64,000 bases of DNA from an uncultured Eubacteriales bacterium (GTDB lineage: Bacteria > Bacillota > Clostridia > Lachnospirales > Lachnospiraceae): NCBI GenBank assembly GCA_900314525.1, contig OMVN01000001.1, forward strand, positions 1 through 64,000, in the 5' to 3' direction. The first letter of the stretch is position 1, and each line of letters starts with the position of its first letter. The notes beneath the pieces were generated by a model, which saw only the letters and a program-made list of their open reading frames with translations, ran no database searches and was not told where the DNA came from. Position numbers and translations under genes: made by a program. Shown piece by piece: positions 19,052 to 61,158 of the stretch.

Positions 19052-21163
19052 CTATTCTAAATGCTTGTCTACATTTCTAAATACCATAACACTTCTAGGA
19101 CCTATGATACAGTTACTTCCGTCAAGTATTACATTCTTATCCTCAATATAACCATTTTCATCCATGGTATCAATTACAACTTTCCATTTATATTCATATG
19201 CTATATTAGGCATTGTAAATGTATCTCTTTCCCAATAGGTATTAATTGCAACATAGATAATTTCATCTTCAATTTCATTCTCTTCGTTTCTGCCTGCATA
19301 CATAATACCAATGAATTTTGTATCAGTATTATACTGATTTTCAAAAGGTCGTTTTCCATGTGTGCTGATATATGGGAAACCAAGGGAACATATCTTTGTA
19401 TTTTTTCTGATTACATGGTGATCTTTTCTGAATTTTATTACCCTCTTAAAGAAATCAAATGTCTTTTTGTTCTTTTTAAGAAGATTCCAGTCAAGCCATG
19501 ATATGATGTTATCCTGGCAATAAGCATTATTATTTCCAAATGCCGTATTACAGAACTCGTCACCAGCAAAGAACATAGGAATTCCTCTGCTCATCATGAG
19601 AACGGTACATGCATTTCTTATCATCCTGTATCTAAGGCTTAATACTGCAGGATCATCTGTCTCGCCTTCAGCTCCGCAGTTCCAACTTAGATTATCATTT
19701 GTTCCATCTGTATTATTCCATCCATTAGCATCATTATGCTTGTAATTATACGAAAACAGATCATAAAGTGTAAATCCGTCATGACATGTAATAAAGTTAA
19801 CTGATGCGTTACTTCCTCTGTAAACCTCATCATAAATATCTGTAGAACCTGTAATTCTGTTTGAGGCAAGATATGCACCGCCGCTTCCTTTTAAGAAGTT
19901 TCTTATATCATCACGATATCTTCCGTTCCACTCTGACCATCTGTTCCATGATGGGAACGAACCTACCTGATACAATCCGCCTGCATCCCATGCCTCTGCA
20001 ATTAGTTTGACATCTCCAAGTATTGGATCAAATGCAAGTGACTGCAATAGTGGAGGTTTGTTCATAGGCGAACCATCTTCATTTCTTCCAAGTATTGTTG
20101 CAAGGTCAAATCTGAAACCATTTACTCTGTAGTTGACTACCCAGTATCTGAGACACTCTAATATCATCTGATGAACAATAGGGTGATTACAGTTTAATGT
20201 GTTTCCACATCCACTGAAATTGTAATAGTATCCATCAGGTGTAAGCATATAATAGATATTATTATCTAAGCCCTTAAAAGAAATATATGGACCAAGTTCA
20301 TTTCCCTCGGCTGTATGATTAAATACAACATCAAGAAATACTTCTATTCCGTTTTCATTCAGCTCTTTTATTAATCTCTTTAATTCATTTCCCTCTCTGT
20401 TAAATTCTATTTTAGAACTGTAACTTGTATTTGGAGCAAAGAAACTGATAGGATTATATCCCCAGTAATCGAGAAGTGTCTTTCCATCTACTTCTCTCTT
20501 ATCTCTTGTCTCATCGAATTCAAAGATAGGCATAAGTTCTACCGCATTAACTCCAAGTTCTTTTAAGTAAGGAATCTTTTTTCTGACTCCCTCAAATGTT
20601 CCTCTTTCATTCTCTTCTAGTTCCGAAGAACCATCCTTTGTAAATCCTCTGACGTGAAGTTCGTAAATAACTAAATCTTCCATAGGTATAGAAGCCTTTT
20701 TAAAGTCCTTCCAGTCAAAATCATTTTTCACAACTCTTGCCTTATATACATTATTCAGTGCAACAGGTTTCCCCCAGACACTCTGTCCTGTAACTGCTTT
20801 AGCATATGGGTCCAAAAGATATTTTGTCTTATCAAAAACAAGTCCCTTTTTAGGATCAAACGGACCATCAACACTGTATGCATATTCAAAATCCTCTATA
20901 TTTAAACCAAAAACAATCATAGAGTATACATTTCCAATTTTATACTGCTCAGGAAATGGTATAATTGCAAATGGCTCCGATTCCATTCTATGAAACAGAA
21001 GGAGCTCACATGATGTTGCATTGTGAGAGTGTATAGTAAAATTAACTCCTCCAGGAATTGCTGTTGCTCCATTAATTTCATACATACCTGGTCTCACATC
21101 ATAGCCCTGAAGATTATCAATTGGCACCATATGATATTTTTCTACTTGCGCACTTTTGTCCAT
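19052..21163 (-). CDS. glgX: Glycogen debranching enzyme / isoamylase (GlgX type, GH13_11)
   Basis: The protein has 703 residues: an N-terminal CBM48 domain (about 20-150), a GH13 barrel and a C-terminal beta domain. All catalytic motifs are intact: DVVFNHT (about 278), the nucleophile Asp353 in GFRFDLA, acid/base Glu390 in LIAEAWD, and the transition-state pair His461-Asp462 in TCHDGF. It cleaves alpha-1,6 branches in glycogen or starch-derived glucans. The length is as usual. AAAGG precedes the ATG. It interrupts the conserved dnaJ-prmA junction and lies just behind the dnaJ terminator. A divergent inactive relative lies at 52499-54421. Confidence 0.93.
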   Translation of the reverse strand: MDKSAQVEKYHMVPIDNLQGYDVRPGMYEINGATAIPGGVNFTIHSHNATSCELLLFHRMESEPFAIIPFPEQYKIGNVYSMIVFGLNIEDFEYAYSVDGPFDPKKGLVFDKTKYLLDPYAKAVTGQSVWGKPVALNNVYKARVVKNDFDWKDFKKASIPMEDLVIYELHVRGFTKDGSSELEENERGTFEGVRKKIPYLKELGVNAVELMPIFEFDETRDKREVDGKTLLDYWGYNPISFFAPNTSYSSKIEFNREGNELKRLIKELNENGIEVFLDVVFNHTAEGNELGPYISFKGLDNNIYYMLTPDGYYYNFSGCGNTLNCNHPIVHQMILECLRYWVVNYRVNGFRFDLATILGRNEDGSPMNKPPLLQSLAFDPILGDVKLIAEAWDAGGLYQVGSFPSWNRWSEWNGRYRDDIRNFLKGSGGAYLASNRITGSTDIYDEVYRGSNASVNFITCHDGFTLYDLFSYNYKHNDANGWNNTDGTNDNLSWNCGAEGETDDPAVLSLRYRMIRNACTVLMMSRGIPMFFAGDEFCNTAFGNNNAYCQDNIISWLDWNLLKKNKKTFDFFKRVIKFRKDHHVIRKNTKICSLGFPYISTHGKRPFENQYNTDTKFIGIMYAGRNEENEIEDEIIYVAINTYWERDTFTMPNIAYEYKWKVVIDTMDENGYIEDKNVILDGSNCIIGPRSVMVFRNVDKHLE

Positions 21164-46225: not shown

Positions 46226-49195
46226 ATGGAAAAACTAAAAAAATATATTAACAAAGAAACCATTAATTATCTTATTTTTGGTGTTCTTACTACACTGGTA
46301 GACTTTGTCACATATTTCTTTTTGACCAAAGCATCAGTTAACTATCTAAAAGCCAATGTCCTTTCATGGATTGCGGCATTTTTGTTTGCATTTATAACAA
46401 ACAAAATAATTGTATTCAACAGTAAATCCTTTGAGTTTTCAAAAATAATACATGAATTTTTTGGATTCTTGACCGCAAGACTTTCATCTCTGCTATTCAG
46501 CCTCGTGTTTATTTATATTTCTGTAACTGTATTACATTCAAATGATTATATTGCAAAGGTTTTATCTTGTATATTTGTTGTAATTATAAACTATGTATTC
46601 AGCAAATTTCTGATTTTTAACGAAAAAGACAAAAAAAGTAAAACCTTTTATGCACGTTTCAAAGATAATTTTGCCTTTATTTTATCCTTTTTAATTCCAC
46701 TTGTAATATTGATTATAATCTACCGTGCAAAAAACATTTACCCATGGGGTGACAGCATGTACTTAAGAAGTGACTGTTATCATCAGTATGCACCATTTAT
46801 GAGAGAGTTTTACAATAAGATAGTCAATGGAGGAAGCTTTAAATTCTCATGGAATATCGGAATGGGTGTAAACTTCAGTGCCCTTTACGCATACTACCTT
46901 GCCAGTCCGCTTAACTGGTTCATTGCACTATTTTCTAAGAAAAATATTCCAGAAATAATGAATGGTTTTATAGTAATCAAAACTGCTCTTTCTTCACTTA
47001 CTTTTGCAATTTATCTTAGCAAACATTTTAAAACAAGAAAGATTACAATTGCAACCCTTTCAGTATTCTATGCACTTAACTCATACTTCTGTGCATTCAG
47101 CTGGAATCTTATGTGGCTTGACTGTCTTGTACTTCTTCCACTTATTGTACTTGGTATAGAAAAACTTGTGAAAGAAAACCGTTGCTATCTCTACTGCATA
47201 TCACTTGGTCTTGCAATTCTTTCAAATTACTATATTGCTATAATGATTTGTATATTCTGCGTTTTATATTTCGGAGCAATGGTCTATTCAGACACAAACT
47301 CAAAATCATTATCTTATTACTTTGAAAGAATAAAGAATTTCACAATATTTTCACTGCTTGCCGGAGGTTTTGCCGCAGTAACATTTCTTCCTGCTTATTA
47401 TGCACTTAGTTCAACTGCATCTGGAGATTTCGATTTTCCAAAAACAGTAATAACATATTTCTCAGCATTATTTATGTTATCAAGATCATTAATAAATGTA
47501 GACCCAGCAATATTCTCTGCACATGATCCTAATATCTACTGCAGTGTTGTGGTATTTTTACTTGTTCCACTCTATGTTGTAAATCCAAAGATTAATTACA
47601 AGGAAAAGCTTACAAAGGTGTCAATAATCTGCTTTTTGTTATTCAGTTTTAACACCAATATTCCTAATTACATCTGGCATGGGTTCCATTATCCAAACAG
47701 CCTTCCTTGCAGAGAATCATTCCTCTATATATTTATGGTTCTGGCAATGAGTTATGAAGCTCTACATTATCTTAGATATGTATCAAAGAAGCAGCTATAT
47801 GGATGTTTTGCCGGTGCAATTGCCCTTATTCTTCTTATTGAGCAATTATTCGTATCTGACACATATAAAGCACAGACAATTTATATTAGCCTTGCATTTT
47901 TAATATTTTATCTGCTTGTATTCTCATTATACAGAAATACAAATTATAAACAGGGCTTTGTGGTATATCTAATGCTTGTAATTGTTGTCTGCGAGAGCTA
48001 TATAAATACAGAGGCAACTGGATTAAGCACATGTACTCGTTCTGCATATCTTGCTGACAACAGTGCAATAGAGAGACTCATCAAGCAGGCAGATTCAGTA
48101 GAGGGAAATAATTTTTACAGGACCGAAAAAGCAGAAAGACGTTCAAAAAATGATGCTGCATGGAGTGATTATCACGGAATATCAATATTCTCCTCTGCTG
48201 CCAATTCTGGTCTTAGCGAATACTTCGGTGCACTTGGATTTGAAGAATCAACAAATGCATATGCAAACTATGGATATACACCTTTGACTGAAGCAATGTT
48301 TGGTGTTAAATATCTCCTAAGTCCTAACAAATTAGATGAAACCGAATTCATTCATGAATTCTCATCTACAAGCTATAAAAATTATTTAGGAAATGATTCA
48401 GTATATTATATGTATGAAAATAACTACAGTCTCCCACTGGGATTTATGTTACCTGAGAACTTAGAGGAAAACTTCGATACATCAGATCCTAATCCATTTA
48501 ATGTACAGAACAGTCTTGCTGCACAGATTAACGGAGTTTCAGCAAGTGATTATCCTATGTATTCAAGACTGCCTGTCACAACTGTTGCAGATAGTAATGA
48601 TATTTATTTAGAAAAAGATACTCATTTATTTATATATGTAACAACATCCCTTGACAGTATAAAGGTATCAAAATCCGGTACCGCCGGTGGCAGTTCAAAA
48701 ATGTATTACTCAATGACCCACAGTCATATATTAGATCTAGGAGAAATGCTTGCAGGCACAAAAGTTTCCGTCACATCAACTGACAGTAAGGTATCATCTA
48801 TTCAGCTTTATGCTTATAGCTTCGACAAAAATGTATTTCTCGATGCATATGATAAGTTAAACAAAAACACACTCAATGTTAGCAGTTACACTGATACAAC
48901 TGTTAACGGTACAATTACTGCAGACCAGTCAGGACTTTTATACTTCTCAATTCCATATGACAAAGGTTTTAGCGTATATGTCGATGGTAAAAAGATCAAA
49001 ACTCACGCATTTAAAGATGCCCTCTTATCAGTATATTTAAATGAGGGAACACATGATATAAGACTTGAATTTAATCCTGTGGGACTTGATAAGGGAATCC
49101 TGCTATCACTGCTAAGTGTAATAGCATTTATTGGAATTGTTATACTTGATATAAGAAAAAAGAAATCAAAAAAAGATATAAAGGATAAGGAATAA
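46226..49195 (+). CDS. GtrA-YfhO fusion: flippase domain plus membrane glycosyltransferase
   Basis: This is a 989-residue protein. Residues 1-135 form a GtrA/GtcA domain with four membrane helices (NYLIFGVLTTLVDFVTYFFL at the start, then helices near 45, 80 and 110). From about 145 to 989 it is YfhO-like: many membrane helices to about 590, the extracytoplasmic GDSMYLRSDCYHQYAPFMREF motif region (about 175-195), then a large extracytoplasmic beta-rich part and a last helix near 960-980. GtrA proteins flip undecaprenyl-phosphate sugars, and YfhO transfers the sugar to an outer acceptor. In B. subtilis these are separate proteins. The fusion is continuous in frame with no internal start signal I can see. 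Confidence 0.9.
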   Translation: MEKLKKYINKETINYLIFGVLTTLVDFVTYFFLTKASVNYLKANVLSWIAAFLFAFITNKIIVFNSKSFEFSKIIHEFFGFLTARLSSLLFSLVFIYISVTVLHSNDYIAKVLSCIFVVIINYVFSKFLIFNEKDKKSKTFYARFKDNFAFILSFLIPLVILIIIYRAKNIYPWGDSMYLRSDCYHQYAPFMREFYNKIVNGGSFKFSWNIGMGVNFSALYAYYLASPLNWFIALFSKKNIPEIMNGFIVIKTALSSLTFAIYLSKHFKTRKITIATLSVFYALNSYFCAFSWNLMWLDCLVLLPLIVLGIEKLVKENRCYLYCISLGLAILSNYYIAIMICIFCVLYFGAMVYSDTNSKSLSYYFERIKNFTIFSLLAGGFAAVTFLPAYYALSSTASGDFDFPKTVITYFSALFMLSRSLINVDPAIFSAHDPNIYCSVVVFLLVPLYVVNPKINYKEKLTKVSIICFLLFSFNTNIPNYIWHGFHYPNSLPCRESFLYIFMVLAMSYEALHYLRYVSKKQLYGCFAGAIALILLIEQLFVSDTYKAQTIYISLAFLIFYLLVFSLYRNTNYKQGFVVYLMLVIVVCESYINTEATGLSTCTRSAYLADNSAIERLIKQADSVEGNNFYRTEKAERRSKNDAAWSDYHGISIFSSAANSGLSEYFGALGFEESTNAYANYGYTPLTEAMFGVKYLLSPNKLDETEFIHEFSSTSYKNYLGNDSVYYMYENNYSLPLGFMLPENLEENFDTSDPNPFNVQNSLAAQINGVSASDYPMYSRLPVTTVADSNDIYLEKDTHLFIYVTTSLDSIKVSKSGTAGGSSKMYYSMTHSHILDLGEMLAGTKVSVTSTDSKVSSIQLYAYSFDKNVFLDAYDKLNKNTLNVSSYTDTTVNGTITADQSGLLYFSIPYDKGFSVYVDGKKIKTHAFKDALLSVYLNEGTHDIRLEFNPVGLDKGILLSLLSVIAFIGIVILDIRKKKSKKDIKDKE

Positions 49196-49221
49196 TAACT
49201 ATTTATTTATAATTCATATAA

Positions 49222-49264
49222 AAAGGGTTATTCATAAGAGATAAATTCTCATGAATAACCCTTT
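49222..49264. terminator. Bidirectional terminator between the YfhO fusion and the parvulin gene
   Basis: AAAGGGTTATTCAT (49222-49235) and ATGAATAACCCTTT (49251-49264) are a perfect 14-bp stem. On the minus strand it is followed by TTTTTATAT, so it serves the parvulin operon best, and can stop the plus-strand gene too. Confidence 0.85.
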
Positions 49265-49287
49265 CTGTATATATAAATTAATTTTAT

Positions 49288-50313
49288 TTATTGGTTTTCT
49301 TCAAGACATGTATAAAAGTTGCTGACAGTTGTATCTTTCATACCTTCTATTGTTATTTCATCCCATACTTTATCATTGAATTCTGATGAAAGTCCACTGA
49401 CAAAGGGATCATATACTTTATTAAAAGCTTCTTTTTTTGCCTCATCAACCATCTTAGCTTTATTAGTTTGTGTTTCATTCTCCAGATAATCATTTATACA
49501 CTTTATTATATAATAACCTTCATCAGTTTTTATTACAGAACTTATTTCCCCTGTTTTCAAGCTAAATGCTGCATCCTCAAACTCCTGTATCATTTCTCCT
49601 CTTCCAAACTGATACTCTGTCTTATCTGCATCCGTATTCTCACTTGCAAGGCTCTCAAAATCAGCACCATCGTTTACCTGGGACAATAAATCATTTATTT
49701 CATTTTCTGCTTTCTGTTTCTCATCTTCACTATAATCTGTTCTTTTTCCTTCCGAATCCATAGTGAATGTCTTTTTATAAATTGATACCACCTTAATCAC
49801 TTTTGCATCAGCATCACTAATTTCCGGATTTACATCCTTAACAACATCATCATATACTTTATTTGCAAGTAAATATTCCTTATAAGCATTTATTACATCT
49901 TCTTTTGTGACTTTCAGGTAATCTTTATCAACTTTACCAAGGCTATTGTAATATGAATCACCAGCCCTCTTTGCTCTGTCCTGCTCATCTGCTGATAATT
50001 CAAGTTTTCTTTTTTGGGCAAGTAAGTTAAGTGTTTTTATCTTGGCGCATTTATCTTTTATATTCTGTTTAATATAGTCTTTAAATGTTGTGTCTCCAAT
50101 TTTTTTGTCAAACACGTCTTCCCCAAAAGAATTTTCACATACATTCTTCTCTGTAGTCAGATACAATTTTGCTTCATTTACACTAAAAGGACTTCCATTG
50201 ATTTTAAATAGCTGATCCTTAGATAATCCCGTCGTAAGCTTTACATTCAGACTACCGCACCCAGTTGTGAGAATTACTGCTGTAATTAACACACTTAATA
50301 TTTTCTTCTTCAT
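49288..50313 (-). CDS. PrsA-like foldase lipoprotein (parvulin-type peptidyl-prolyl isomerase)
   Basis: The protein is 341 residues from ATG 50313 (GAGGTAGAG upstream). A longer frame to 50415 runs back into maf and lacks support. A lipoprotein signal with lipobox LTTGC gives Cys near 19. A helical chaperone-like region follows (about 35-185, with many K/D/E). Then a parvulin domain (about 185-300) carries YQFGRGEMIQEFEDAAFSLKTGEISSVIKTDEGYYIIK-type features. It assists folding of exported proteins outside the membrane. It is last in a five-gene minus-strand series. Confidence 0.85.
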   Translation of the reverse strand: MKKKILSVLITAVILTTGCGSLNVKLTTGLSKDQLFKINGSPFSVNEAKLYLTTEKNVCENSFGEDVFDKKIGDTTFKDYIKQNIKDKCAKIKTLNLLAQKRKLELSADEQDRAKRAGDSYYNSLGKVDKDYLKVTKEDVINAYKEYLLANKVYDDVVKDVNPEISDADAKVIKVVSIYKKTFTMDSEGKRTDYSEDEKQKAENEINDLLSQVNDGADFESLASENTDADKTEYQFGRGEMIQEFEDAAFSLKTGEISSVIKTDEGYYIIKCINDYLENETQTNKAKMVDEAKKEAFNKVYDPFVSGLSSEFNDKVWDEITIEGMKDTTVSNFYTCLEENQ

Positions 50314-50332
50314 ATCTCTACCTCTTATATCA

Positions 50333-50932
50333 CTATAATTCAATATTAAATTTATCTTTTGCCTCTCTGTATAGCCTTGAAATAGGAAGTCCAACAATAT
50401 TATTGTAATCCCCATCTATCTTTTCCACGTATTTTGCAAAATATCCCTGTATACCATAAGAACCAGCTTTGTCCATAGGCTCTTTAGTGGCAATATATTC
50501 TATAATATTTTCTCTCGAAAGTTCAGAAACAAAAACATCACTGCATTCATAAAATGTATGCATTCTTGTTTCACCATTATTTACATACATAATACTTACA
50601 CCGGTATATACCTGATGTGCTTTTCCTGACAACATAGTTAACATCTCTAATGCATCCTGCTCATCCCTAGGCTTACCAAGAATCCTATCCCCAAAGGCCA
50701 CTATGGTGTCGGCAGAAATAATAAGTGTATTTTCCTTAATTTCATCCTTAATCTTATTGTAGACATCTGATATCTTTTGTTTTGAAAGTGAACATACAAT
50801 TTCAGAAGGAGTATCCCCTTCCATTATTTCTTCCATCGTGCTTGGGATACATTCATATTCCACTTTTATCTGATCTAATAATTCTCTCCTCCTAGGAGAT
50901 TTCGATGCTAGAATAACTTTACTAATCTTCAT
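50333..50932 (-). CDS. maf: Maf-family nucleoside triphosphate pyrophosphatase
   Basis: The protein has 199 residues. Maf motifs are VILASKSPRRRELLDQI (about 6-22), a DTIVAFGDRILGKPRD segment (about 75-90), and GSYGIQGYFAKYVEKIDGDYNNIVGLP (about 157-183). It hydrolyses non-canonical or modified nucleotides such as dTTP, UTP or m5UTP, depending on subtype, and has been linked to septum inhibition. It lies 12 bp after the pyridoxamine kinase and 19 bp before the parvulin start. Confidence 0.93.
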   Translation of the reverse strand: MKISKVILASKSPRRRELLDQIKVEYECIPSTMEEIMEGDTPSEIVCSLSKQKISDVYNKIKDEIKENTLIISADTIVAFGDRILGKPRDEQDALEMLTMLSGKAHQVYTGVSIMYVNNGETRMHTFYECSDVFVSELSRENIIEYIATKEPMDKAGSYGIQGYFAKYVEKIDGDYNNIVGLPISRLYREAKDKFNIEL

Positions 50933-50944
50933 AATTCTGCCTTT

Positions 50945-51772
50945 CTATTTTAAATATTTAAGTACATCTTCGAAACAAACACCATCTTCAGGCGGTATAT
51001 CTCTCTTATTTGTCACCTCAATACATTTTTTTATAAAACCACTGGCTTTCTTTACCGAAGAAATAAAATCAACATTATTAACCGCATCTGCCGCAATTAT
51101 TGCGGAAAAAATATCTCCCGTACCTGATCTTGTCTCACCTATAACTTTTGTCTTAATTATCAGTCCATCATTTCCTTTCTGATAAACATAATTATTTATA
51201 TACTGTCCTCTCACAATTCCTGTTATTACCACCTTTGATGGTCCCATATTTGATAATTTTTCAGCCATCTGTTTTATCTTACCATAGTTCATGTCTTCTC
51301 TATACGGTGTATCTGTAAGGATACAGCACTCTGTCAGATTAGGTGTGATTATATCAGATATTGCAACAAGTTCTTTCATTTTTTCACACATCTCATTTGT
51401 GTAGGTTTTATATTTTATACCGTCGTCCCCCATAACAGGGTCAACTACTACTACTGTTTTATCATCTTTAAAATCATTTATAAATTTTTTTACTATTTCA
51501 ATCTGTCTTACTGATCCTAAAAAACCAGAAGATATTCCTTCAAATTTCAAATCTAATTTTTTCCAGTTATCTATGTAATCCTGCATTTTATCAGTATAAT
51601 CTTCAAAAAAATACTCTGGATATGCTGTATGGTTTGAAAATACAGATGTCAAAACCGGGCAGCACTGAACTTTTAATGCAGATATAACTGGAAGTGCCAC
51701 TGTTATTGAACATTTTCCAAAACCTGTAAAATCGTTTATAAATGCAATTTTTCTCTGATTGTTATGAGACAT
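50945..51772 (-). CDS. Pyridoxamine/pyridoxal kinase (PfkB/ribokinase fold)
   Basis: The 275-residue protein has the PdxY/ThiD-type ribokinase fold: FINDFTGFGKCSITVALPVISAL (about 10-32), VVVDPVMGDDG (about 103-113), ITPNLTECCILTD (about 138-150) and the anion-hole motif GETRSGTGDIFSAI (about 218-231), with catalytic Asp in G-T-G-D. It phosphorylates B6 vitamers for PLP salvage. Subfamily specificity is inferred from similarity to Firmicute pyridoxamine kinases. It lies 34 bp after the TraX gene. Confidence 0.85.
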   Translation of the reverse strand: MSHNNQRKIAFINDFTGFGKCSITVALPVISALKVQCCPVLTSVFSNHTAYPEYFFEDYTDKMQDYIDNWKKLDLKFEGISSGFLGSVRQIEIVKKFINDFKDDKTVVVVDPVMGDDGIKYKTYTNEMCEKMKELVAISDIITPNLTECCILTDTPYREDMNYGKIKQMAEKLSNMGPSKVVITGIVRGQYINNYVYQKGNDGLIIKTKVIGETRSGTGDIFSAIIAADAVNNVDFISSVKKASGFIKKCIEVTNKRDIPPEDGVCFEDVLKYLK

Positions 51773-51806
51773 TTTCTTCTCCCGCTTAATATATTTATAT
51801 AAATTT

Positions 51807-52502
51807 TTACATGATTATAATTTTAATCAGATAAAGTATTGTTAAGTGGACTGGATAATATGTATAAAAAAGCCACTTTAATAATTGCGATTCACTTCCC
51901 TTTTCCCCATTATACATGCAAATTGGAATCAGGGCAAATGATGCAAATCCCTGTATGCCACCCATGAATATTACATTTATAATAATCTGGGAAACTATTG
52001 ATAATATACCATAAAATCTCAATGTATAGAATAAATATATCATCACAATGCCAAAATAAGTGTAATCACACTTAATATAATACGCTGTCACACACCCTAT
52101 AATTAATAGCAAATATTCTATAATATTAGATATAAATGGATTTTCACTTAGGAAATACATCTTATCCTTTTCAATAAGGAATATCACCAGAAGACCTATA
52201 AATAAGCTAAAAAATACATTTTGTTTTCTCACATATATTATTGAACTACCAAAACACAAATTAAAGGGTATCTCTGATATTATTGCAAATAATAAAAGTC
52301 TTGCCAGATATTTTACGCAGTTTCTGGTATTAAATAGCCCTATTACTATCAGATAACAGAATATTGGCATTGCAATTCTCCCAAATATTTTTAAAATTGT
52401 GGTGATAAATAAATTTTGAGGCAGTAAAACTGCCCCAATATGGTCTAATGTCATTGAAATTAAAGCGATAAACTTTAATTTATTTGTTGAAATACATTTC
52501 AT
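51807..52502 (-). CDS. TraX-family membrane protein
   Basis: The protein has 231 residues and about eight membrane helices. It starts NKLKFIALISMTLDHIGAVLLPQ, where the M-T-L-D-H-I motif and the following GRIAMPIFCYLIVIG match the TraX/acyltransferase-like family. F-plasmid TraX acetylates the pilin N-terminus. Chromosomal Firmicute members have no assigned substrate. The ATG overlaps the stop of the GlgX-like gene by four bases (ATGA), so the two are translationally coupled. A surface acylation role is possible and is inference. Confidence 0.8.
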   Translation of the reverse strand: MKCISTNKLKFIALISMTLDHIGAVLLPQNLFITTILKIFGRIAMPIFCYLIVIGLFNTRNCVKYLARLLLFAIISEIPFNLCFGSSIIYVRKQNVFFSLFIGLLVIFLIEKDKMYFLSENPFISNIIEYLLLIIGCVTAYYIKCDYTYFGIVMIYLFYTLRFYGILSIVSQIIINVIFMGGIQGFASFALIPICMYNGEKGSESQLLKWLFYTYYPVHLTILYLIKIIIM

Positions 52503-54421
52503 GATTTTTTATTGCTTTCCTGATTTATATTTTCTATCCTTTTTCTGGTCTCCTCAGCAAGTTTCAGACTAATTTTTCTTGCATGTTCTTCCTCTTGCTT
52601 TACTTCCTCGTTCTCTCTGCTCACAAGTACAGCTACCGAACGTTTAGGAACAACCATACTCCTTGAGAATTTCACATGTCTGTCATCAATTTTCACTTCC
52701 TCTTTAGATGTAACAAAACATACTTCCCAGTCTCTTCCTTTTCCTGCAGATGGAAGTCCGAATTTTCTCTCCTCCCAGTACATATTAAAGGCAATATAAA
52801 GGCTCTCATCCTCAGATTTATTATACACTTTTAAATATTTACCATTGAGCATATACGCAAAATGTCTTGTAAATAAATCTGTATCTAATGCCCATGTTCT
52901 GTCTGAGTGATATGACATCTCTGGTGTTCCCACAGACCTGTAATCTGTAGTATGTGGCATTGTTCCCATATGAAGCATATCATGCGATTTCCTAAATTCA
53001 ATAAGAAATTTTACAAACTCAAATAATTCCTCATTTTTCTTTCTAGATCTCCACTTTATGTATGAAGTCTCATTATCCTGACAATATGGATTATTATTTC
53101 CATTTGCTGTATTACCAAATTCATCTCCAGCATATATCAAAGGTGCTCCCTGGGATAACATAAGCATACAGAATGCATTCTTTAACTGTTTCATTCTGAA
53201 TTCATTTGTCTTCTTTCCCTTTGTCATTCCTTCAACACCACAGTTCCAGCTATAATTATCTTCTCTGCCATCCCTGTTTAGTTCCCCATTATCCTGGTTA
53301 TGTTTGCTAGAATATGACACCATATCCATCATTGTAAAAGTGTTATTGGTTGCAATAAAATTAATTGGCGTTGCAAAATCCTTATTGTATCTGACTCTGA
53401 ATGCCATATCTTTTACCGTACCCTCGTCTCCTTTTAGAAATTTTCTAGAGACATTCATAAATACATCATTGTACTCACCAAGGTTTTTATTATATGCATA
53501 ATTAGGATTATCAAATCCATAGCTGATAATCTTTGTGTTTGAGAGATATGGATCCGAGCTCACTGCTCCTCTTATATCATCACTCATATTACAATGTATT
53601 CCATCAATATGATAGTTGATAACCCAGTATCTAAAGCAGTCAATCATGTATGCAGGTGAAATTCCCTCTTCAAAGAAGAATTCCATACAAATCTCTATAT
53701 TATTTTTATGAAGCTCTTTAACAAGAGTTTTAAATTCATTAATTGCGCTTTTCGCATCTTTTTTATTTGAAAAAGCAACCTTTGGCATAAAATAGTCTGC
53801 AGTCGTATATCCCCAGTAATTTACCTTTCCGCTCTTCATGCCAAAATTTTCATTAAATTCGTATGCTGGCATAAGTTCCACCATAGTAATTCCCAATTCT
53901 TTGAAATATGGGATTTTTTCAGCTACACCAGCAAATGTTCCCTTTTTCTTAACACCAGAGAATCTGTCCATTGTAAAACCACGTACATGAAGTCTGTAAA
54001 TGATAGAATCACAGAAATCTGTCATTGGCTTTCTGTCATCTTCCCATTTGAACCTGTCAACGTGTACTGCACTTGTCTTTTTTGAAGAGTCATTATCTCC
54101 AAATACTTTCGCACCATTTATTAGAGTGGCATATGGATCAGTCACAATTCTGTTACCAATACGGTAATTGTAATCAAAATCATTTAAATTAATACCACCA
54201 AGGCACATCGTGCAAATATTTCCGTACCACATCTCATTACTAAAGGCAATTTCAGAAACTACTTTCATTGTACCCTTTTCATACAATATCAAAGAGCACG
54301 GTTTTCTCTCGCCATTGTTTACCATGAGTGCAAAGTTGATACCTTCATTAGTCTTTGCTGCTCCAAGAATCATTGGATTTCCTGGTTTGATTTTATAATT
54401 TAATTCCTTACTCTTTGCCAT
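52499..54421 (-). CDS. GlgX-like glycoside hydrolase 13 pseudoenzyme, catalytic residues lost
   Basis: This 640-residue protein aligns along its length with the intact GlgX at 19052-21163 (IIYRLHVRGFT, GTFAGVAEKIPYFKELGI, VELMPAYEFNE, DNYSWNCGVEG, GAPLIYAGDEFGNTANGNNN). Yet all three catalytic residues are changed. The nucleophile motif GFRFDLA reads GIHCNMS (Asn278), the acid/base motif AEAWD reads SYGFD (Tyr301), and TCHDGF reads ATNNTF (Asn359-Asn360). The DVVFNHT motif and about 45 residues of domain B after it are missing. Hydrolysis is therefore not expected. The frame is fully open and the fold core is kept, so it is a selected protein, perhaps a glucan-binding or regulatory one. It heads a five-gene operon with TraX. 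Confidence 0.88.
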   Translation of the reverse strand: MAKSKELNYKIKPGNPMILGAAKTNEGINFALMVNNGERKPCSLILYEKGTMKVVSEIAFSNEMWYGNICTMCLGGINLNDFDYNYRIGNRIVTDPYATLINGAKVFGDNDSSKKTSAVHVDRFKWEDDRKPMTDFCDSIIYRLHVRGFTMDRFSGVKKKGTFAGVAEKIPYFKELGITMVELMPAYEFNENFGMKSGKVNYWGYTTADYFMPKVAFSNKKDAKSAINEFKTLVKELHKNNIEICMEFFFEEGISPAYMIDCFRYWVINYHIDGIHCNMSDDIRGAVSSDPYLSNTKIISYGFDNPNYAYNKNLGEYNDVFMNVSRKFLKGDEGTVKDMAFRVRYNKDFATPINFIATNNTFTMMDMVSYSSKHNQDNGELNRDGREDNYSWNCGVEGMTKGKKTNEFRMKQLKNAFCMLMLSQGAPLIYAGDEFGNTANGNNNPYCQDNETSYIKWRSRKKNEELFEFVKFLIEFRKSHDMLHMGTMPHTTDYRSVGTPEMSYHSDRTWALDTDLFTRHFAYMLNGKYLKVYNKSEDESLYIAFNMYWEERKFGLPSAGKGRDWEVCFVTSKEEVKIDDRHVKFSRSMVVPKRSVAVLVSRENEEVKQEEEHARKISLKLAEETRKRIENINQESNKKS

Positions 54422-54532
54422 AATACCATTCGCTTTCCTATATTATTTCTATATTATATATTAGAATCCTTTAATTAACAATTGCTTTTTTTGAATTTGT
54501 GCCCATTTACTGCTCAATATCCAAAATTGTAC

Positions 54533-54560
54533 TTGAAAAATAACGAATATACTGTAAAAT
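54533..54560 (+). promoter_or_regulatory. Promoter of the ABC-F / PHP gene pair
   Basis: TTGAAA (54533-54538), a 16-bp spacer and TAAAAT (54555-54560), about 37 bp before the ABC-F ATG. Confidence 0.55.
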
Positions 54561-54596
54561 AAGAAGAGAATTAATGTAAGGAAAGGATTTATTAAT

Positions 54597-56231
54597 ATGA
54601 TTAGTGCAAATAATATCACTCTTCGTCTGGGTAAAAAGGCCCTTTTTGAAGACGTAAATATTAAATTTACTGAAGGCAACTGCTATGGACTTATTGGTGC
54701 AAACGGAGCAGGAAAATCTACATTCTTAAAGATTTTATCAGGCCAGATTGATTCTACAAACGGAGATATTGTAATCACACCAGGACAGAGACTTTCATTC
54801 TTAGAGCAGGATCATTTCAAATATGATGAATATCAGGTTCTTGATACAGTAATCATGGGAAATGAGAGACTTTATGAAATAATGAAGGAGAAAGATGCCA
54901 TCTATGCTAAAGAAGATTTCACTGAGGAAGATGGTATAAAAGCCGGCAAATTAGAAGAAGAATTCGCAGGTCTCAATGGATGGGAAGCTGAATCAGATGC
55001 CGCTACTCTCTTAAATGGCCTTGGTATCGATACAGATTTGCACTACAAATATATGAAAGAGTTACGAGGCAGCGAAAAAGTCAAGGTTCTCCTTGCCAAA
55101 GCACTGTTTGGTAACCCAGATATCTTACTTCTCGATGAGCCTACTAACCATTTAGATTTAGATGCTATTGCATGGCTTGAGGAGTTTTTAATTAACTTCG
55201 AAAATACTGTTATTGTAGTATCCCATGACAGATACTTCTTAAATAAGGTTTGTACTCAGATAGCAGATATTGATTATGGTAAAATCAAATTATATGCCGG
55301 TAATTACGATTTCTGGTATGAATCAAGCCAGTTACTTGTAAAACAGATGAAAGAAGCAAATAAGAAAAAAGAAGAGAAAATCAAGGAATTACAGGAATTT
55401 ATCCAGAGATTCTCTGCAAATGCTTCAAAATCAAAACAGGCAACATCAAGAAAACGTGCTCTTGAAAAAATCGAGCTTGATGATATCAAACCTTCAAGCA
55501 GAAAATATCCATATATCGATTTCAGACCTAATAGAGAAATCGGTAACGAAGTGTTAACTGTAGAACATATTTCAAAAACAATTGATGGTGTCAAGGTATT
55601 AGATGATATCTCATTCATAGTTGGACGAGAAGACAAAATTGCTTTTGTAGGTTCTAACGAAATTGCAAAGACTACACTTTTCAGAATCCTTTCAGGTGAA
55701 ATCGAACCTGATGAAGGAAACTACAAATGGGGTGTTACTACTACTCAGACTTATTTCCCTAAAGATAATACCAAGGAATTTGATAACGATTACACAATTG
55801 TAGATTGGCTCACAGGTTACTCTGAAATAAAAGATGCAACATATGTACGTGGTTTCCTTGGAAGAATGCTTTTTGCCGGTGATGATGGCGTAAAAAAAGT
55901 CAAGGTATTATCCGGTGGTGAAAAAGTTAGATGTCTTTTATCAAAAATGATGATTTCTGGTGCAAACGTTCTTATTCTTGATGAGCCAACAAACCATCTT
56001 GATATGGAATCTATCACAGCACTTAACAATGGTCTCATCAAGTTCCCAGGTGTTATACTTTTTGCATCTCATGACCACCAGTTTGTTGAGACAACTGCAA
56101 ATCGTATTATGGAAATTGTTAATGGCAAATTAATTGATAAGATAACAACATACGACGAATATCTTGCTAGTGATGAAATGGCAAGAAAACGTGAGACATA
56201 TGAAATGGACGAAGGAGAGAATGATAACTAA
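54597..56231 (+). CDS. ykpA: ABC-F family ATPase, YkpA/YbiT type
   Basis: The 544-residue protein has two ABC domains and no membrane segments. The first has Walker A GANGAGKST (about 37-45), signature LRGSEKVK and Walker B ILLLDEPTNHLD. A charged linker (about 245-300) follows. The second has GSNEIAKTT in place of a standard P-loop, signature LSGGEKVR, and VLILDEPTNHLD. The altered second P-loop is usual for the YkpA branch. ABC-F proteins act on the ribosome E site. This branch is not linked to a defined antibiotic. The stop overlaps the next ATG by one base (TAATG). Confidence 0.92.
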   Translation: MISANNITLRLGKKALFEDVNIKFTEGNCYGLIGANGAGKSTFLKILSGQIDSTNGDIVITPGQRLSFLEQDHFKYDEYQVLDTVIMGNERLYEIMKEKDAIYAKEDFTEEDGIKAGKLEEEFAGLNGWEAESDAATLLNGLGIDTDLHYKYMKELRGSEKVKVLLAKALFGNPDILLLDEPTNHLDLDAIAWLEEFLINFENTVIVVSHDRYFLNKVCTQIADIDYGKIKLYAGNYDFWYESSQLLVKQMKEANKKKEEKIKELQEFIQRFSANASKSKQATSRKRALEKIELDDIKPSSRKYPYIDFRPNREIGNEVLTVEHISKTIDGVKVLDDISFIVGREDKIAFVGSNEIAKTTLFRILSGEIEPDEGNYKWGVTTTQTYFPKDNTKEFDNDYTIVDWLTGYSEIKDATYVRGFLGRMLFAGDDGVKKVKVLSGGEKVRCLLSKMMISGANVLILDEPTNHLDMESITALNNGLIKFPGVILFASHDHQFVETTANRIMEIVNGKLIDKITTYDEYLASDEMARKRETYEMDEGENDN

Positions 56232-57064: not shown

Positions 57065-57832
57065 TTATTTATTCATAACATAAAGATCATATAATCCTTT
57101 CAATAATAAATCAGGATCATATATGATCTTTTTTTTGCAATATGGAACTATAAGTCCAGCAATTCCACCTGTGGCTATAACAGTAGCATTGCTTCCTAGT
57201 ACTTCTTCCACCCTATCTATTATGCCATCTACCATAGCTGCATTTGAATACACAAGCCCCGACTGCATACATTCTACTGTATTTCTTCCTATTAGATTTT
57301 TTGGTGCCTTAAACTCAATTTTTGGAAGTTGTGAGGCCTTGTCAGACAGTGCTTGATATGATATTGCAACTCCCGGAATAATAATAGTTCCAAGATATTC
57401 TCTGGATTTATTTACAACCGAACATGTTGTTGCAGTACCCATGTCAAATATAATTATATCACCATCATGCTGATTAACTGCAGCGACTGCATCAACTAAT
57501 AAATCATTTCCAAGCTGTTTTCTGTTCTCTGTCATCACCTTGATTCCAGTTTTTAAATCCTGATTTGCAATTACCGTCTCAGTATCTGTAATGTCATCAA
57601 GTGCCTTCTTTACCTTATCAGTTATTTCTGGAACAACAGATGACAATATTGCACCCTTAACTTCGTTAACAGGGGCTTCATTTTCTTCCAGAATATTCTT
57701 TATTGTTTTGTAAAAATACTCATCATTTTCATTTTTGGCAGTAACTGTTCTCGCCATAAATACTAGTTCTTTTTTGTCATTTAAAATTCCGATTACAATA
57801 TTTGAATTCCCGATGTCTGCTGTAATTATCAT
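57065..57832 (-). CDS. coaX: Type III pantothenate kinase CoaX
   Basis: This 255-residue ASKHA-fold kinase begins MIITADIGNSNIVIGIL (phosphate 1 motif), with DIIIFDMGTATTCSVVN (about 128-144, catalytic Asp region) and VIATGGIAGLI (about 219-229). It phosphorylates pantothenate, the first committed CoA step, and is not inhibited by CoA. The ATG overlaps the coaBC stop by one base. It ends the pan/CoA operon. Its 3' end contains a plus-strand terminator-like hairpin. Confidence 0.94.
   Translation of the reverse strand: MIITADIGNSNIVIGILNDKKELVFMARTVTAKNENDEYFYKTIKNILEENEAPVNEVKGAILSSVVPEITDKVKKALDDITDTETVIANQDLKTGIKVMTENRKQLGNDLLVDAVAAVNQHDGDIIIFDMGTATTCSVVNKSREYLGTIIIPGVAISYQALSDKASQLPKIEFKAPKNLIGRNTVECMQSGLVYSNAAMVDGIIDRVEEVLGSNATVIATGGIAGLIVPYCKKKIIYDPDLLLKGLYDLYVMNK
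57113..57136 (+). terminator. Plus-strand terminator-like hairpin inside the coaX 3' end
   Basis: GATCAT-AT-ATGATC (57115-57128) is followed by eight T (57129-57136) on the plus strand, 50 bp past the PHP stop. It may end the ABC-F/PHP transcript inside the antisense of coaX. The stem is short and AT-rich, so strength is doubtful. Confidence 0.5.
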
Positions 57833-59037
57833 TATTTATGCTCCATAAGTAATTTTATTTCATCTAAAAGTGCTGATGCTGCATCTCTTTTAGACATAAG
57901 TGGTAAATCTTTTATTCCATCTTTTTTTATGAGAACAAGATGATTTGTATCAGTTCCAAATCCTGCCCCTGTATCCCTGAGAGAATTGGCAGCAATAATA
58001 TCTGCATTTTTCTTCTCTAACTTTTTCTTTGAGTTTTCCAGCATATTCTGAGTTTCCATTGAGAAACCACAAATAATCTGTCCTTCTTTTCTATTATGTC
58101 CAAGCCAGTTTAAAATGTCTGTTGTTCGCTCTAACTTTATATTTAAATCACTGTCATTTTCGGATTTTTTAATTTTCTCATCCTTTTTATCAAGCGGTGT
58201 GTAATCTGCCACTGCTGCAGTCTTGATTATTACATCCATATCCTCATAATTTGACTTTACAGCCTCAAACATATCCCTAGCGCTTACAACATTTATACTC
58301 TTTACAAATCCAGGTTTTTTTATATTTACAGGTCCAGATACTAGTGTTACATCTGCACCTCTAAGCATTGCCATTTCTGCAATTGCATATCCCATTTTTC
58401 CTGTGGAATGATTAGTAATAAATCTGACAGGATCAATTGCCTCCCTCGTTGGTCCTGCTGTTATAAGTATTTTCTTGCCTATAAGATCTTTTTCAAATCC
58501 AATTTCCTTAATTATATAAGACAATAGCTCTTCAGGTTCAGGCATTTTACCTTTTCCTGTATATCCGCATGCCAAATATCCTTCATTAGGTTCTATAACA
58601 ATATTATTGTATTTTTTTAGTTTCTCTATATTATCCTGAACTATAGGATTATTGTACATATTTACATTCATAGCTGGTGCAACTATAACAGGGCATCTCA
58701 TTGCAAGATACGTAGTTGATAGCATATCATCTGCAATTCCATTTGCCATTTTTGCAATAATATTTGCAGAGGCCGGCGCAATCATCATTATATCAGCGCT
58801 GTCCGCAAGGGACACATGTTCTACTTCATGTACAAAATTTCTGTCAAATGTCTCAACTATGCACTTATTTTTTGTAAGTGTCTCAAAAGTAATAGGGTTA
58901 ATAAAATTTGTAGCATTTTTTGTCATTATCACATGAACATCTGCACGTAACTTTACCAGGGCACTTGCAAGATTTGCAATCTTGTATGCAGCAATGCTTC
59001 CTGTAACTCCAAGTACAACTCTTTTTCCTTTAAGCAT
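57832..59037 (-). CDS. coaBC: Bifunctional phosphopantothenoylcysteine decarboxylase / synthetase CoaBC
   Basis: The protein is 401 residues from ATG 59037 (GGAG eight bases upstream, better than the GTG at 59046). The N-terminal flavoprotein (CoaC, about 1-180) has VVLGVTGSIAAYK, an active His in FVHEVEHVSLAD (about 68-79), and the PxMNxxMY-like APAMNVNMYNN (about 122-132). The C-terminal CoaB (about 185-401) has ILITAGPTREAIDPVRFITNHSTGKMG. Together they turn phosphopantothenate and cysteine into 4'-phosphopantetheine. It lies 16 bp after panD. Confidence 0.95.
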   Translation of the reverse strand: MLKGKRVVLGVTGSIAAYKIANLASALVKLRADVHVIMTKNATNFINPITFETLTKNKCIVETFDRNFVHEVEHVSLADSADIMMIAPASANIIAKMANGIADDMLSTTYLAMRCPVIVAPAMNVNMYNNPIVQDNIEKLKKYNNIVIEPNEGYLACGYTGKGKMPEPEELLSYIIKEIGFEKDLIGKKILITAGPTREAIDPVRFITNHSTGKMGYAIAEMAMLRGADVTLVSGPVNIKKPGFVKSINVVSARDMFEAVKSNYEDMDVIIKTAAVADYTPLDKKDEKIKKSENDSDLNIKLERTTDILNWLGHNRKEGQIICGFSMETQNMLENSKKKLEKKNADIIAANSLRDTGAGFGTDTNHLVLIKKDGIKDLPLMSKRDAASALLDEIKLLMEHK

Positions 59038-59053
59038 ATTAATCACTCCGTTT

Positions 59054-59443
59054 TTACATATCGCCTAACAAACCGTGTTTTTCGTATCTTGTAACTCTGC
59101 TTATATTATTATTTTCATCTACAAATACAACTTTTGGTGAATTTTCGTGTGCTTCTTCTGGTGTCATCTGGGCATAACACATGATAATCACCTTATCCCC
59201 AACACATACCATTCTTGCTGCTGCTCCATTGAGGCATATCATTCCGCTTCCCTTTTCACCGGCAATTACATAGGTTTCAAATCGATTTCCGTTCTCCACA
59301 TCTACTATCTGCACCTGCTCATACTCTAAAATTCCTGCTGCTTCCATGAGCTCTTCATCAATAGTGATACTTCCCACATAATCAAGGGCTGCCTGTTTTA
59401 CAGTAGCACGATGGATTTTTCCCTTAAGCATTGTCAAATTCAT
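59054..59443 (-). CDS. panD: Aspartate 1-decarboxylase PanD
   Basis: The 129-residue proenzyme starts [20 protein letters not shown] and has the Gly24-Ser25 self-cleavage site in YVGSITIDE that gives the pyruvoyl group. [21 protein letters not shown] (about 61-81) and [11 protein letters not shown] follow. It makes beta-alanine from aspartate for pantothenate. Length is usual. It needs a PanZ- or PanM-type factor in enterobacteria, but Firmicute PanD self-process. GGAGAA precedes the ATG. Confidence 0.96.
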
Positions 59444-59460
59444 AATAATATTTTCTCCTT

Positions 59461-60309
59461 CTATACTTCTTCAAAAATAAAGTTATCTATCAATCTTGTT
59501 TTTCCAATGTATACTGCCATTGCAACTAATACTGGACAATCAATTTTGTGATGTACTTCTATAGAATCCCATTTAACCATTTCAACATAATCAATCTTTG
59601 CAAGTGGTTCTTCATTAATTATTTCTTTCATGGCATCAATGACTTTTTCTCCATCTCTCTCTCCGTTTTTAACCATTTCCTGACCTTTAAATATTGCCTT
59701 TGAAAGAACTAATGCCGACTGTCTCTCTTTCTCTGAAAGATATGTATTTCTAGAACTCTTAGCAAGCCCGTCTTCCTCTCTGATTATAGGACATCCAACT
59801 ATCTCAATATCCATATTTAAGTCTCTTACCATATGTCTTATTACTGCAAGCTGCTGTGCATCTTTCTGTCCAAAATATGCCTTGTCTGGTGTAACAATGT
59901 TAAATAGCTTATTTACTACAGTACATACACCTCTAAAATGAATTGGTCTGCTCTTTCCACATAATTCCTTTGTAACATCGTTCATATCAACAAATGTAAC
60001 GAAATCACCCACATACATCTCATCTACTTCTGGATTAAACAGCATTGCTGCGCCTGTTTTTTCGCAAAGTGCAAAATCAGCATCAAGATCTCTTGGATAA
60101 CTTTCCAAATCCTCTGTTGGTCCAAACTGGATAGGATTAACAAAATCTGATACAACAACCCTGTCATTTTCCTCTACTGCTCTCTTTATAAGACTCTGAT
60201 GTCCCTCATGGAGAAATCCCATTGTAGGAACAAGACCTACTGTAAGACCCTGTTTTTTCCACTCTTTAACCTGTGCTCTGACACCTTTAACTGTTTTCTC
60301 TAAAATCAT
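59461..60309 (-). CDS. panC: Pantothenate synthetase PanC
   Basis: The 282-residue nucleotidyltransferase-fold ligase has [18 protein letters not shown] (about 24-41, containing the HxGH motif), [16 protein letters not shown] (about 60-75), [15 protein letters not shown] (about 150-164) and [11 protein letters not shown] (KSSRN, about 187-197). It condenses pantoate and beta-alanine with ATP. It is 20 bp after panB. GGAGG precedes the start. Confidence 0.96.
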
Positions 60310-60328
60310 TTTTTATGTCCTCCGCTTA

Positions 60329-61156
60329 TTAATATAATTTTTCTATAACATCTTCATCAATAGTGTAACAGTTTTCTTTTGCTGGGAATGTGCCTGCATC
60401 CACTTCTTCTATATAACTCTTAAAGGCATTTTTCATGACTTCACCAACATTTGCAAATTTCTTTACAAACTTAGGAGTAAAGTCCGAATACATTCCAAGC
60501 ATATCCTGATATACAAGAATCTGTCCATCACAGTCCTTTCCTGCTCCAATTCCAATTGTTGGAATACCTGATCTCTCTGTTACAATTTTAGCAAGTGCAG
60601 CTGGCACTCCTTCTATAACTACCGAAAATGCTCCTGCCTCTTCTACTGCCTTAGCATCCTCTAAAAGTTTCTTCGCTGCTGCCTCTGTCTTTCCCTGAAC
60701 TCTATGTCCACCAAAAGCATTTATTGACTGTGGAGTGAGACCAATATGAGCCATAACTGGAATTCCGGCGTCAACTATTGCCTTAATCTGCTCTTTTACT
60801 TCAACTCCGCCTTCAAGTTTTACTGCATTAGCTCTTCCCTCTTTCATCAGGCGACCAGCATTAACTACTGCGTCATAAACGCTTGTCTGATAAGACATAA
60901 ATGGCATATCTATTACAACCATTGCATTTTTTGCACCTCTTGCAACTGCAGCACCATGATGAATCATATCTTCCATAGTAACTGACACTGTATCTTCATA
61001 ACCAAGCATAACGTTTCCAAGAGAATCGCCAACAAGTATACCATTTATTCCTGCCTCATCTATAAGTGATGCTGTAGAGTAATCGTATGCTGTAAGCATT
61101 GATATCTTCTTGCCTTCCTCTTTCGCCTTTTTAAATGTTAATACTGTATTCTTCAT
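60329..61156 (-). CDS. panB: Ketopantoate hydroxymethyltransferase PanB
   Basis: The protein is 275 residues from ATG 61156, with AGGAGA seven bases upstream. It is a TIM-barrel enzyme with [18 protein letters not shown] (about 20-37), [16 protein letters not shown] (about 41-56), an AVKLEGG segment (about 116) and [21 protein letters not shown] (about 200-220). It adds a one-carbon unit from methylene-THF to 2-oxoisovalerate. It starts two bases after the DUF2520 reductase stop. Confidence 0.96.
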
Positions 61157-61158
61157 CG

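Follow-up and report, generated by a model that had tools for sequence, protein, structure and literature searches.

A catalytically dead GlgX relative maintained as a pseudoenzyme family in Lachnospiraceae

What can a protein with the fold of a glycogen debranching enzyme do once the residues for hydrolysis have been replaced? The question is raised by a gene found in a window of 64,000 nucleotides (the whole stretch of DNA analysed; assembly GCA_900314525.1, contig OMVN01000001.1, positions 1 to 64,000) of an uncultured Eubacteriales bacterium of the family Lachnospiraceae. The initial annotation of this window had described the gene, here named pGlgX, as an intact but catalytically dead relative of GlgX. 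The results presented here support pGlgX as a pseudoenzyme family kept under selection. The protein and its active relative, used for comparison, are encoded as follows.

52499..54421, minus strand: pGlgX, pseudoenzyme of the GlgX/isoamylase fold, 640 amino acids (open frame, profile, alignment, model and Foldseek)
19052..21163, minus strand: canonical GlgX of the same genome, 703 amino acids (TIGR02100 662.8 bits, cut-off 640.9)

The two proteins share 37% identity (220 of 596 aligned positions). For wider comparison, 120 pGlgX members and 23 canonical GlgX proteins were taken from loci L081-L220 together with the window pair. Loci L081-L140 were picked by hand from 175 carriers in the taxonomic family and from members of the genus, with strong and some weak matches, and loci L141-L220 represent the best 80 of 591 matches; L089 and L141 are identical, and the number 120 thus counts one copy twice. 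The canonical proteins came from a scan aimed at pGlgX and are not a balanced sample of GlgX. By motif, the 140 loci contain 119 pseudo and 22 canonical open reading frames (ORFs), with both types in one locus and intermediate forms in none. The former catalytic sites of the window protein, including conserved sequence regions (CSR) I and IV, are listed below.

53663..53683, minus strand: remnant EFFFEEG of CSR I, codons 247-253 (DVVFNHT in GlgX), Asn and His gone; coordinates computed from residue numbers
53588..53590, minus strand: Asn278 at the nucleophile position, codon 278 (GlgX Asp353); Asp in 0 of 120 members
53519..53521, minus strand: Tyr301 at the acid/base position, codon 301 (GlgX Glu390); Glu in 18 of 120 members
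53342..53347, minus strand: Asn359-Asn360 at the His-Asp pair of CSR IV, codons 359-360 (GlgX His461-Asp462, the Asp being the stabiliser); Asp in 32 of 120 members

Alignment with the window GlgX confirmed these replacements, all of them noted in the initial annotation, as well as the reported loss of DVVFNHT and of about 45 residues of domain B, of which approximately 44 are missing by our alignment. The position of the CSR I His is occupied by Glu252 in the window protein, and His is kept there in one of 120 members. Asp at the nucleophile position, absent from the whole pseudo clade, is present in 23/23 canonical proteins; CSR I and CSR II are separated by 30-31 residues in 120/120 pseudo members versus 75 residues in 23/23 canonical ones, domain B being gone from the former. 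Since nucleophile and domain B are missing in every member examined, their loss is not a matter of chance. At six catalytic-site columns, the canonical residue is kept in only 0-36% of the pseudo clade, and 39 of the 57 columns listed as relaxed fall in pGlgX residues 246-360, spanning motifs I-IV, the rest being scattered, many of them in the N-terminal domain. The former catalytic positions vary among members, some of which keep one or more of the residues other than the nucleophile, so that Asn/Tyr/Asn does not serve as a fixed signature of the family.

A new catalytic activity, supplied by relocated residues, would be one explanation for the conservation of such a protein. Conservation of the acidic positions Asp332, Glu333 and Asp493 is far higher in the pseudo clade than among GlgX proteins, and the Glu of CSR III and the Asp of CSR IV survive in the members counted above. 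However, clade-specific positions are few, the former catalytic positions differ from member to member, and comparison of motifs and conservation across the 120 members revealed no evident shifted catalytic set; we regard a new activity as very doubtful.

The rest of the enzyme is well preserved. The AlphaFold2 model of pGlgX, built with 52 sequences (the window protein and named records), has a pLDDT (predicted local distance difference test) of 90.1 and a pTM (predicted template modelling score) of 0.89, in keeping with the well-kept fold noted in the initial annotation. The best PDB match by Foldseek is rice ISA1 (E 2.6e-55, TM 0.81 by query), followed, over the whole length, by Chlamydomonas ISA1, Streptomyces venezuelae GlgX, TreX, Escherichia coli GlgX (E 6.7e-42) and ISA2 chains. 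The N-terminal beta-sandwich, the (beta/alpha)8 barrel and the C-terminal beta-sandwich are all present; in the model, the first strand starts at residue 10 and the barrel close to residue 140, leaving space for a single N-terminal domain. Like GlgX, TreX and isoamylase of subfamily 11 of glycoside hydrolase family 13 (GH13_11), pGlgX thus matches the fold along its whole length, and 72 columns are conserved in both groups. Unlike the active members, it lacks the nucleophile and domain B and scores 326.1 bits (E 3.6e-97) with the GlgX model TIGR02100, below the cut-off of 640.9. The alpha-amylase Pfam model gives 49.8 bits on the window protein. No match to the CBM48 Pfam model was reported in the window protein, while three of four other members scanned match it, one above the cut-off.

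The initial annotation had asked whether the homologues form a clade, and on the tree they fall together: the 120 pseudo members are separated from the 23 canonical GlgX by a branch with SH-aLRT 100 (quick maximum-likelihood tree, LG+G4, unrooted, 142 different rows of 143). Because the nucleophile and domain B are uniformly lost and the members group together, we infer a single ancestral loss, after which the dead sites drifted, as a simpler account than repeated loss, with subsequent descent within Lachnospiraceae. Each of ten genomes of the genus has one long pGlgX match, those of the nine others at 59-76% identity, and matches to canonical GlgX are weaker and split. In the taxonomic family, 175 of 298 genomes match at E ≤ 1e-100. 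A profile search of 200 Lachnospiraceae genomes (199 genera) gave 165 matches at E ≤ 1e-80 and 158 carriers at E ≤ 1e-130, carriers being defined by profile score with our own cut and with motifs not inspected; G106, G131, G178 and G193 lie near this cut. Seven genomes with weaker matches were set aside, five of which hold canonical GlgX, the other two being G119 and G166. Outside this set, 68 of 245 genomes of an order sample are carriers, every one of the same family, and 299 genomes of a phylum sample include two, namely the window genome and another Lachnospiraceae genome; both samples were queried with the single window protein (E ≤ 1e-75), which is less sensitive than the profile. Pseudo members from named genomes, 59 among the best 80 of 591 matches, include Butyrivibrio, Anaerocolumna, Konateibacter, Velocimicrobium, Acetatifactor, Oribacterium, Roseburia and Dorea, along with the looser labels Clostridium sp. 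chh4-2 and Eubacterium sp.

The loss of catalytic residues could also mark a decaying pseudogene. This explanation is refuted by the uninterrupted ORF in 119/119 pseudo loci (picked for good matches, broken copies elsewhere being uncounted), by the single long copy in all ten genomes of the genus and by the ratio of nonsynonymous to synonymous substitution rates (dN/dS). Among nine orthologues of the genus, 18 of 36 pairs gave a finite dS, and over these the NG86 estimate has a median of 0.106 and a maximum of 0.192; the values are rough, as dS is high and largely saturated. The median is far below 1, as the proposed selection implied, and lies between the values for PdxK (0.077) and TraX (0.216) of the same loci.

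What is selected may be read from the residues that remain. The contacts of S. venezuelae GlgX to the -1 sugar are Trp222, Tyr224, His271, Asp342, Glu378, Trp380 and His449, and those to other sugars are Arg212, Glu470, Asn534 and Tyr536 (PMC9530166). Mapped by motif and spacing, Trp222 corresponds to pGlgX Trp203 (119/120), Tyr224 to Tyr205 (108/120) and Glu470 to Glu380 (118/120); the equivalents of His271, Asp342, Glu378, Trp380 and His449 are lost or variable, and Arg212 could not be placed on pGlgX. In maize ISA1, W578 is a glucan contact of the surface site SBS2, and R504, N561 and N628 belong to the same border lobe (PMC12510319). By constant spacing offset on the plant chain, N561 and N628 correspond to Asn375 and Asn442, both conserved in 120/120 members, and R504 to Arg326 (115/120), the latter mapping being one residue off. 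Two retained sites of the window protein are located as follows.

53084..53092, minus strand: Asn444 and Tyr446 (N-P-Y, codons 444-446), equivalent to Asn534 and Tyr536 of S. venezuelae GlgX; conserved in 120/120 and 118/120 members
53246..53248, minus strand: Trp392, codon 392, aligned with maize ISA1 W578 by spacing; Trp in 119/120 members

All eight groove and lobe sites tested are retained, against a background of 70 out of 205 columns: all 205 reach an identity of 95% or more among canonical GlgX proteins, and in the pseudo clade these 70 stay at 90% or above and 90 drop below 50%. Glu380 stands outside the eight, as canonical GlgX itself varies there. Residue 482 of the window GlgX is Trp, likewise in three others of the 23 canonical proteins, and the other 19 have the contact Glu corresponding to S. 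venezuelae Glu470.

We consider it about an even prospect that pGlgX is a cytosolic alpha-glucan-binding protein that does not hydrolyse its ligand and that steers or regulates other enzymes of glycogen metabolism. Glycogen or maltodextrin chains would be gripped by what remains of the groove in its outer part (Trp203, Tyr205, Glu380, Asn444 and Tyr446), the border-lobe surface around Trp392 would also hold them, and pGlgX, without cutting, would act on other enzymes by a logic like that of plant ISA2. Analogy with ISA2 and GlgD likewise suggests a role in regulation or scaffolding within glycogen metabolism. The protein looks cytosolic by sequence: a crude hydropathy scan detected no transmembrane stretch and no signal peptide in the window pGlgX, and hydrophobic windows above 1.6 occur in five of 120 members, none within the first 45 residues. 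The glucan sensor or scaffold put forward in the initial annotation fits the retained contacts, but as a function it is inferred.

In GH13 proteins, domain B forms one wall of the groove. Its loss in pGlgX removes that wall, and the retained loop residues, invariant in active GlgX too, may serve folding. The barrel and loops could therefore be kept for structure in a scaffold that binds proteins such as TraX or DUF5662, with no glucan binding. We find this unlikely, as the named sites are retained beyond the background and the GH13_11 fold can do without SBS2, whose sequence is absent from ISA2 (PMC12510319). Trp392 being nearly invariant, pGlgX retains a lobe that ISA2 lacks.

The partner enzymes were sought in the 200 genomes, 68 of which contain pGlgX and GlgX, 90 pGlgX only, 5 GlgX only and 37 neither (GlgX called at E ≤ 1e-120; table compiled by hand from two match lists). 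Co-occurrence is above chance (Fisher p 1.2e-4, phylogeny ignored), which allows a complex of the two proteins where both are present; such a complex is possible. GlgA was found in 195 genomes (156/158 carriers and 39/42 others). In 71 chosen genomes, namely 35 without any pGlgX match and 36 carriers, 34 of them lacking GlgX, GlgP is present in 67 (35/36 carriers and 32/35 non-carriers) and type I pullulanase in 17, both called at E ≤ 1e-60. Of the 34 GlgX-less carriers, 23 have GlgA but are devoid of both GlgX and type I pullulanase, and 33 have GlgP. The two debranching enzymes are also absent from most of the 35 pGlgX-free genomes.

These counts bear on an obligate subunit of the ISA2 type, in which pGlgX would work only as a heteromer with GlgX and tune its activity. 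Such a subunit has a precedent in plants, where ISA2 raises ISA1 activity in rice according to a review, and the co-occurrence would fit, although that test takes no account of phylogeny. Because 90 of 158 carriers have no GlgX, pGlgX cannot depend on it family-wide, and strict pairing of the ISA1/ISA2 type was rejected, as was strict pairing with type I pullulanase, missing in those 23 GlgX-less carriers. The obligate subunit, already weakened across the family, is accordingly most improbable. For a glucan-binding regulator, the client is more likely to be GlgA, GlgB or GlgP than GlgX alone, because more than half of the carriers are without GlgX.

The gene downstream of pGlgX in the window belongs to another family.

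51807..52502, minus strand: TraX-family (PF05857) membrane protein, 231 amino acids (PF05857 144.1 bits, cut-off 25)

Its start overlaps the stop of pGlgX as ATGA at 52499-52502, as first reported. TraX is known for the acetylation of F-pilin, encoded within a conjugation operon; the genes nearest to the window copy are pdxK, maf and parvulin (Pfam) and an ABC-F gene (by eye), with no conjugation genes among them. The listed parvulin ORF (49288-50932, minus strand) overlaps maf, and its real start is probably an internal Met, residue 35, where a lipoprotein-like signal begins. The run of B6 kinase, Maf and parvulin described in the initial annotation is present in the window but not conserved: pdxK, which opens the run, is present at 9 of 60 loci, each of them either from the window genus or one of its two closest loci, and the three genes were discarded as conserved partners. 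A scan of 49000-55200 for promoters and terminators gave no better result than shuffled sequence. Elsewhere in the window, an ORF of 989 amino acids (46226-49195, plus strand), which by eye resembles a fusion of a GtrA-type domain with a YfhO-type membrane protein, adjoins a family-2 glycosyltransferase, and an ordinary pantothenate/CoA cluster (CoaX, CoaBC, PanD, PanC and PanB by eye) occupies 57065-61162 on the minus strand.

In 37 of 119 loci, TraX is the next gene downstream on the same strand, with a spacing of -108 to +142 bases, and these stretches have no TraX or DUF5662 match anywhere else. DUF5662 (PF18907) is the other recurrent downstream gene, in 51 loci by hidden Markov model (HMM) and 43 by an earlier count of BLAST clusters. 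Among 110 loci with at least 1.5 kb downstream (HMM), 26 have TraX only, 39 DUF5662 only, 10 both and 35 neither; TraX is thus present in 36, DUF5662, direct or behind TraX, in 49, and either in 75. TraX is therefore not always next door, a point that the initial annotation had proposed to test. When both are present, the order is always pGlgX-TraX-DUF5662 (10 loci). Neither gene was found downstream in 21 loci where canonical GlgX occurs without pGlgX, a mixed group drawn from several phyla. Of the 158 carriers among the 200 genomes, 150 had listed coordinates, and counting by eye only rows on the matching contig gave TraX in at least 38, DUF5662 in at least 66 and both in at least 14. Chance adjacency of a single-copy gene is estimated at about one in a thousand.

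Both genes occur in most genomes (TraX in 186 of 200, often away from pGlgX, and DUF5662 in 171), so neither depends on pGlgX. The tree requires 16 changes for TraX and 15 for DUF5662, with the three-gene order in separate groups (older DUF5662 count); this scattered order may reflect an ancestral trio followed by losses, and repeated gain is also allowed. The window genome has a single DUF5662 copy at G000:C49:91973-92422, on the same contig outside the window, approximately 37 kb from pGlgX and not behind TraX. At G144:C96:1136-2313, a TraX-DUF5662 pair was found in a genome without pGlgX by profile at E ≤ 1e-80, which would fit a loss of the leading gene of the trio. DUF5662 has invariant His and Asp residues, for which a phosphohydrolase-like reading is a guess from their pattern. 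Its model has a pLDDT of 84.4 and a best PDB match of only E 0.63; no PDB match was found by sequence, no solved fold was matched by the model, and no paper naming DUF5662 was found in open-access PMC literature.

TraX is described as a borderline member of the TmAT acyltransferases (PMC12423673). An envelope role could follow, in which TraX would acylate a glycan or protein of the cell surface, pGlgX serving this reaction and DUF5662 acting as accessory enzyme, and the three-gene order in at least 14 of 150 genomes and 10 of 119 loci would fit it. Yet pGlgX looks cytosolic, whereas the AT3-type proteins of the TmAT superfamily are reported to transfer onto extracytosolic acceptors; TraX often lies elsewhere, and it is missing beside DUF5662 in 39 of 110 loci. 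We judge an envelope role improbable.

For the glucan-binding regulator, TraX and DUF5662 would be likely functional partners, which perhaps, speculatively, tether or modify the bound complex. Also unlikely, in our view, is the wider proposal that pGlgX is a separate bacterial counterpart of ISA2, forming with TraX and DUF5662 an ancestral module that ties the glycogen particle to a membrane acyltransferase and a possibly metal-binding protein.

Several points weigh against glycogen-directed binding. Binding without cleavage is deduced from residue conservation, and the retained residues could be structural; the Fisher test on the eight sites (p 1.4e-4) is descriptive, because the conserved columns had been seen before the contacts were taken from papers. 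The retained contacts adjoin a loop, 447-453, whose pLDDT is below 50. Co-occurrence with GlgA and GlgP was rejected as a test of a glycogen role, both being near universal. TraX and DUF5662 are not known as glycogen proteins, and the 35 loci mentioned above have neither downstream.

To our knowledge, plant ISA2 is the known case of a non-catalytic isoamylase. Its nucleophile is varied in every ISA2 examined, most of the other conserved catalytic residues are lost too, and it is kept across a large clade and evolves fast (PMC12510319). ISA2 forms a complex with the active ISA1 and retains a pair of SBS1 tryptophans. Similar to ISA2, pGlgX has the GH13_11 fold and has lost the nucleophile in all members, and in one genome pair it is 63% identical versus 77% for GlgX. 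Unlike ISA2, it is bacterial, lacks domain B and an extra N-terminal beta-sandwich, keeps W578 and the SBS2 lobe, is present in many genomes without active GlgX and has other neighbours. These differences suggest that pGlgX arose independently of ISA2. GlgD is a regulatory subunit beside the catalytic GlgC in the same pathway, according to a review on gut glycogen (PMC10395257); in contrast to pGlgX, often found without an active relative, it acts on GlgC, another enzyme. The c-di-GMP-regulated S. venezuelae GlgX has the same fold and shows that GlgX can carry regulation, but that enzyme is active. Its motif ExR(X)6R occurs in the first 110 residues of 3 of 120 pGlgX members and RxxD in residues 31-80 of 23, and a c-di-GMP receptor by the Streptomyces motif was rejected.

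Searches of open-access PMC literature yielded no account of a bacterial non-catalytic GH13_11 protein, and 'pseudoenzyme' and 'Lachnospir' are absent from the searched text of a Chem Rev review on prokaryotic alpha-glucan enzymes. Two glgX homologues are reported for Blautia obeum in the gut glycogen review (PMC10395257), one of which could be pGlgX. The protein occurs in 158 of the 200 genomes sampled from a family prominent in gut and rumen, and its scores on GlgX models carry a risk of misannotation as a debranching enzyme and of misleading metabolic models. In this bacterial system, the function of a dead isoamylase can be studied both in genomes that have the active enzyme and in genomes that lack it.

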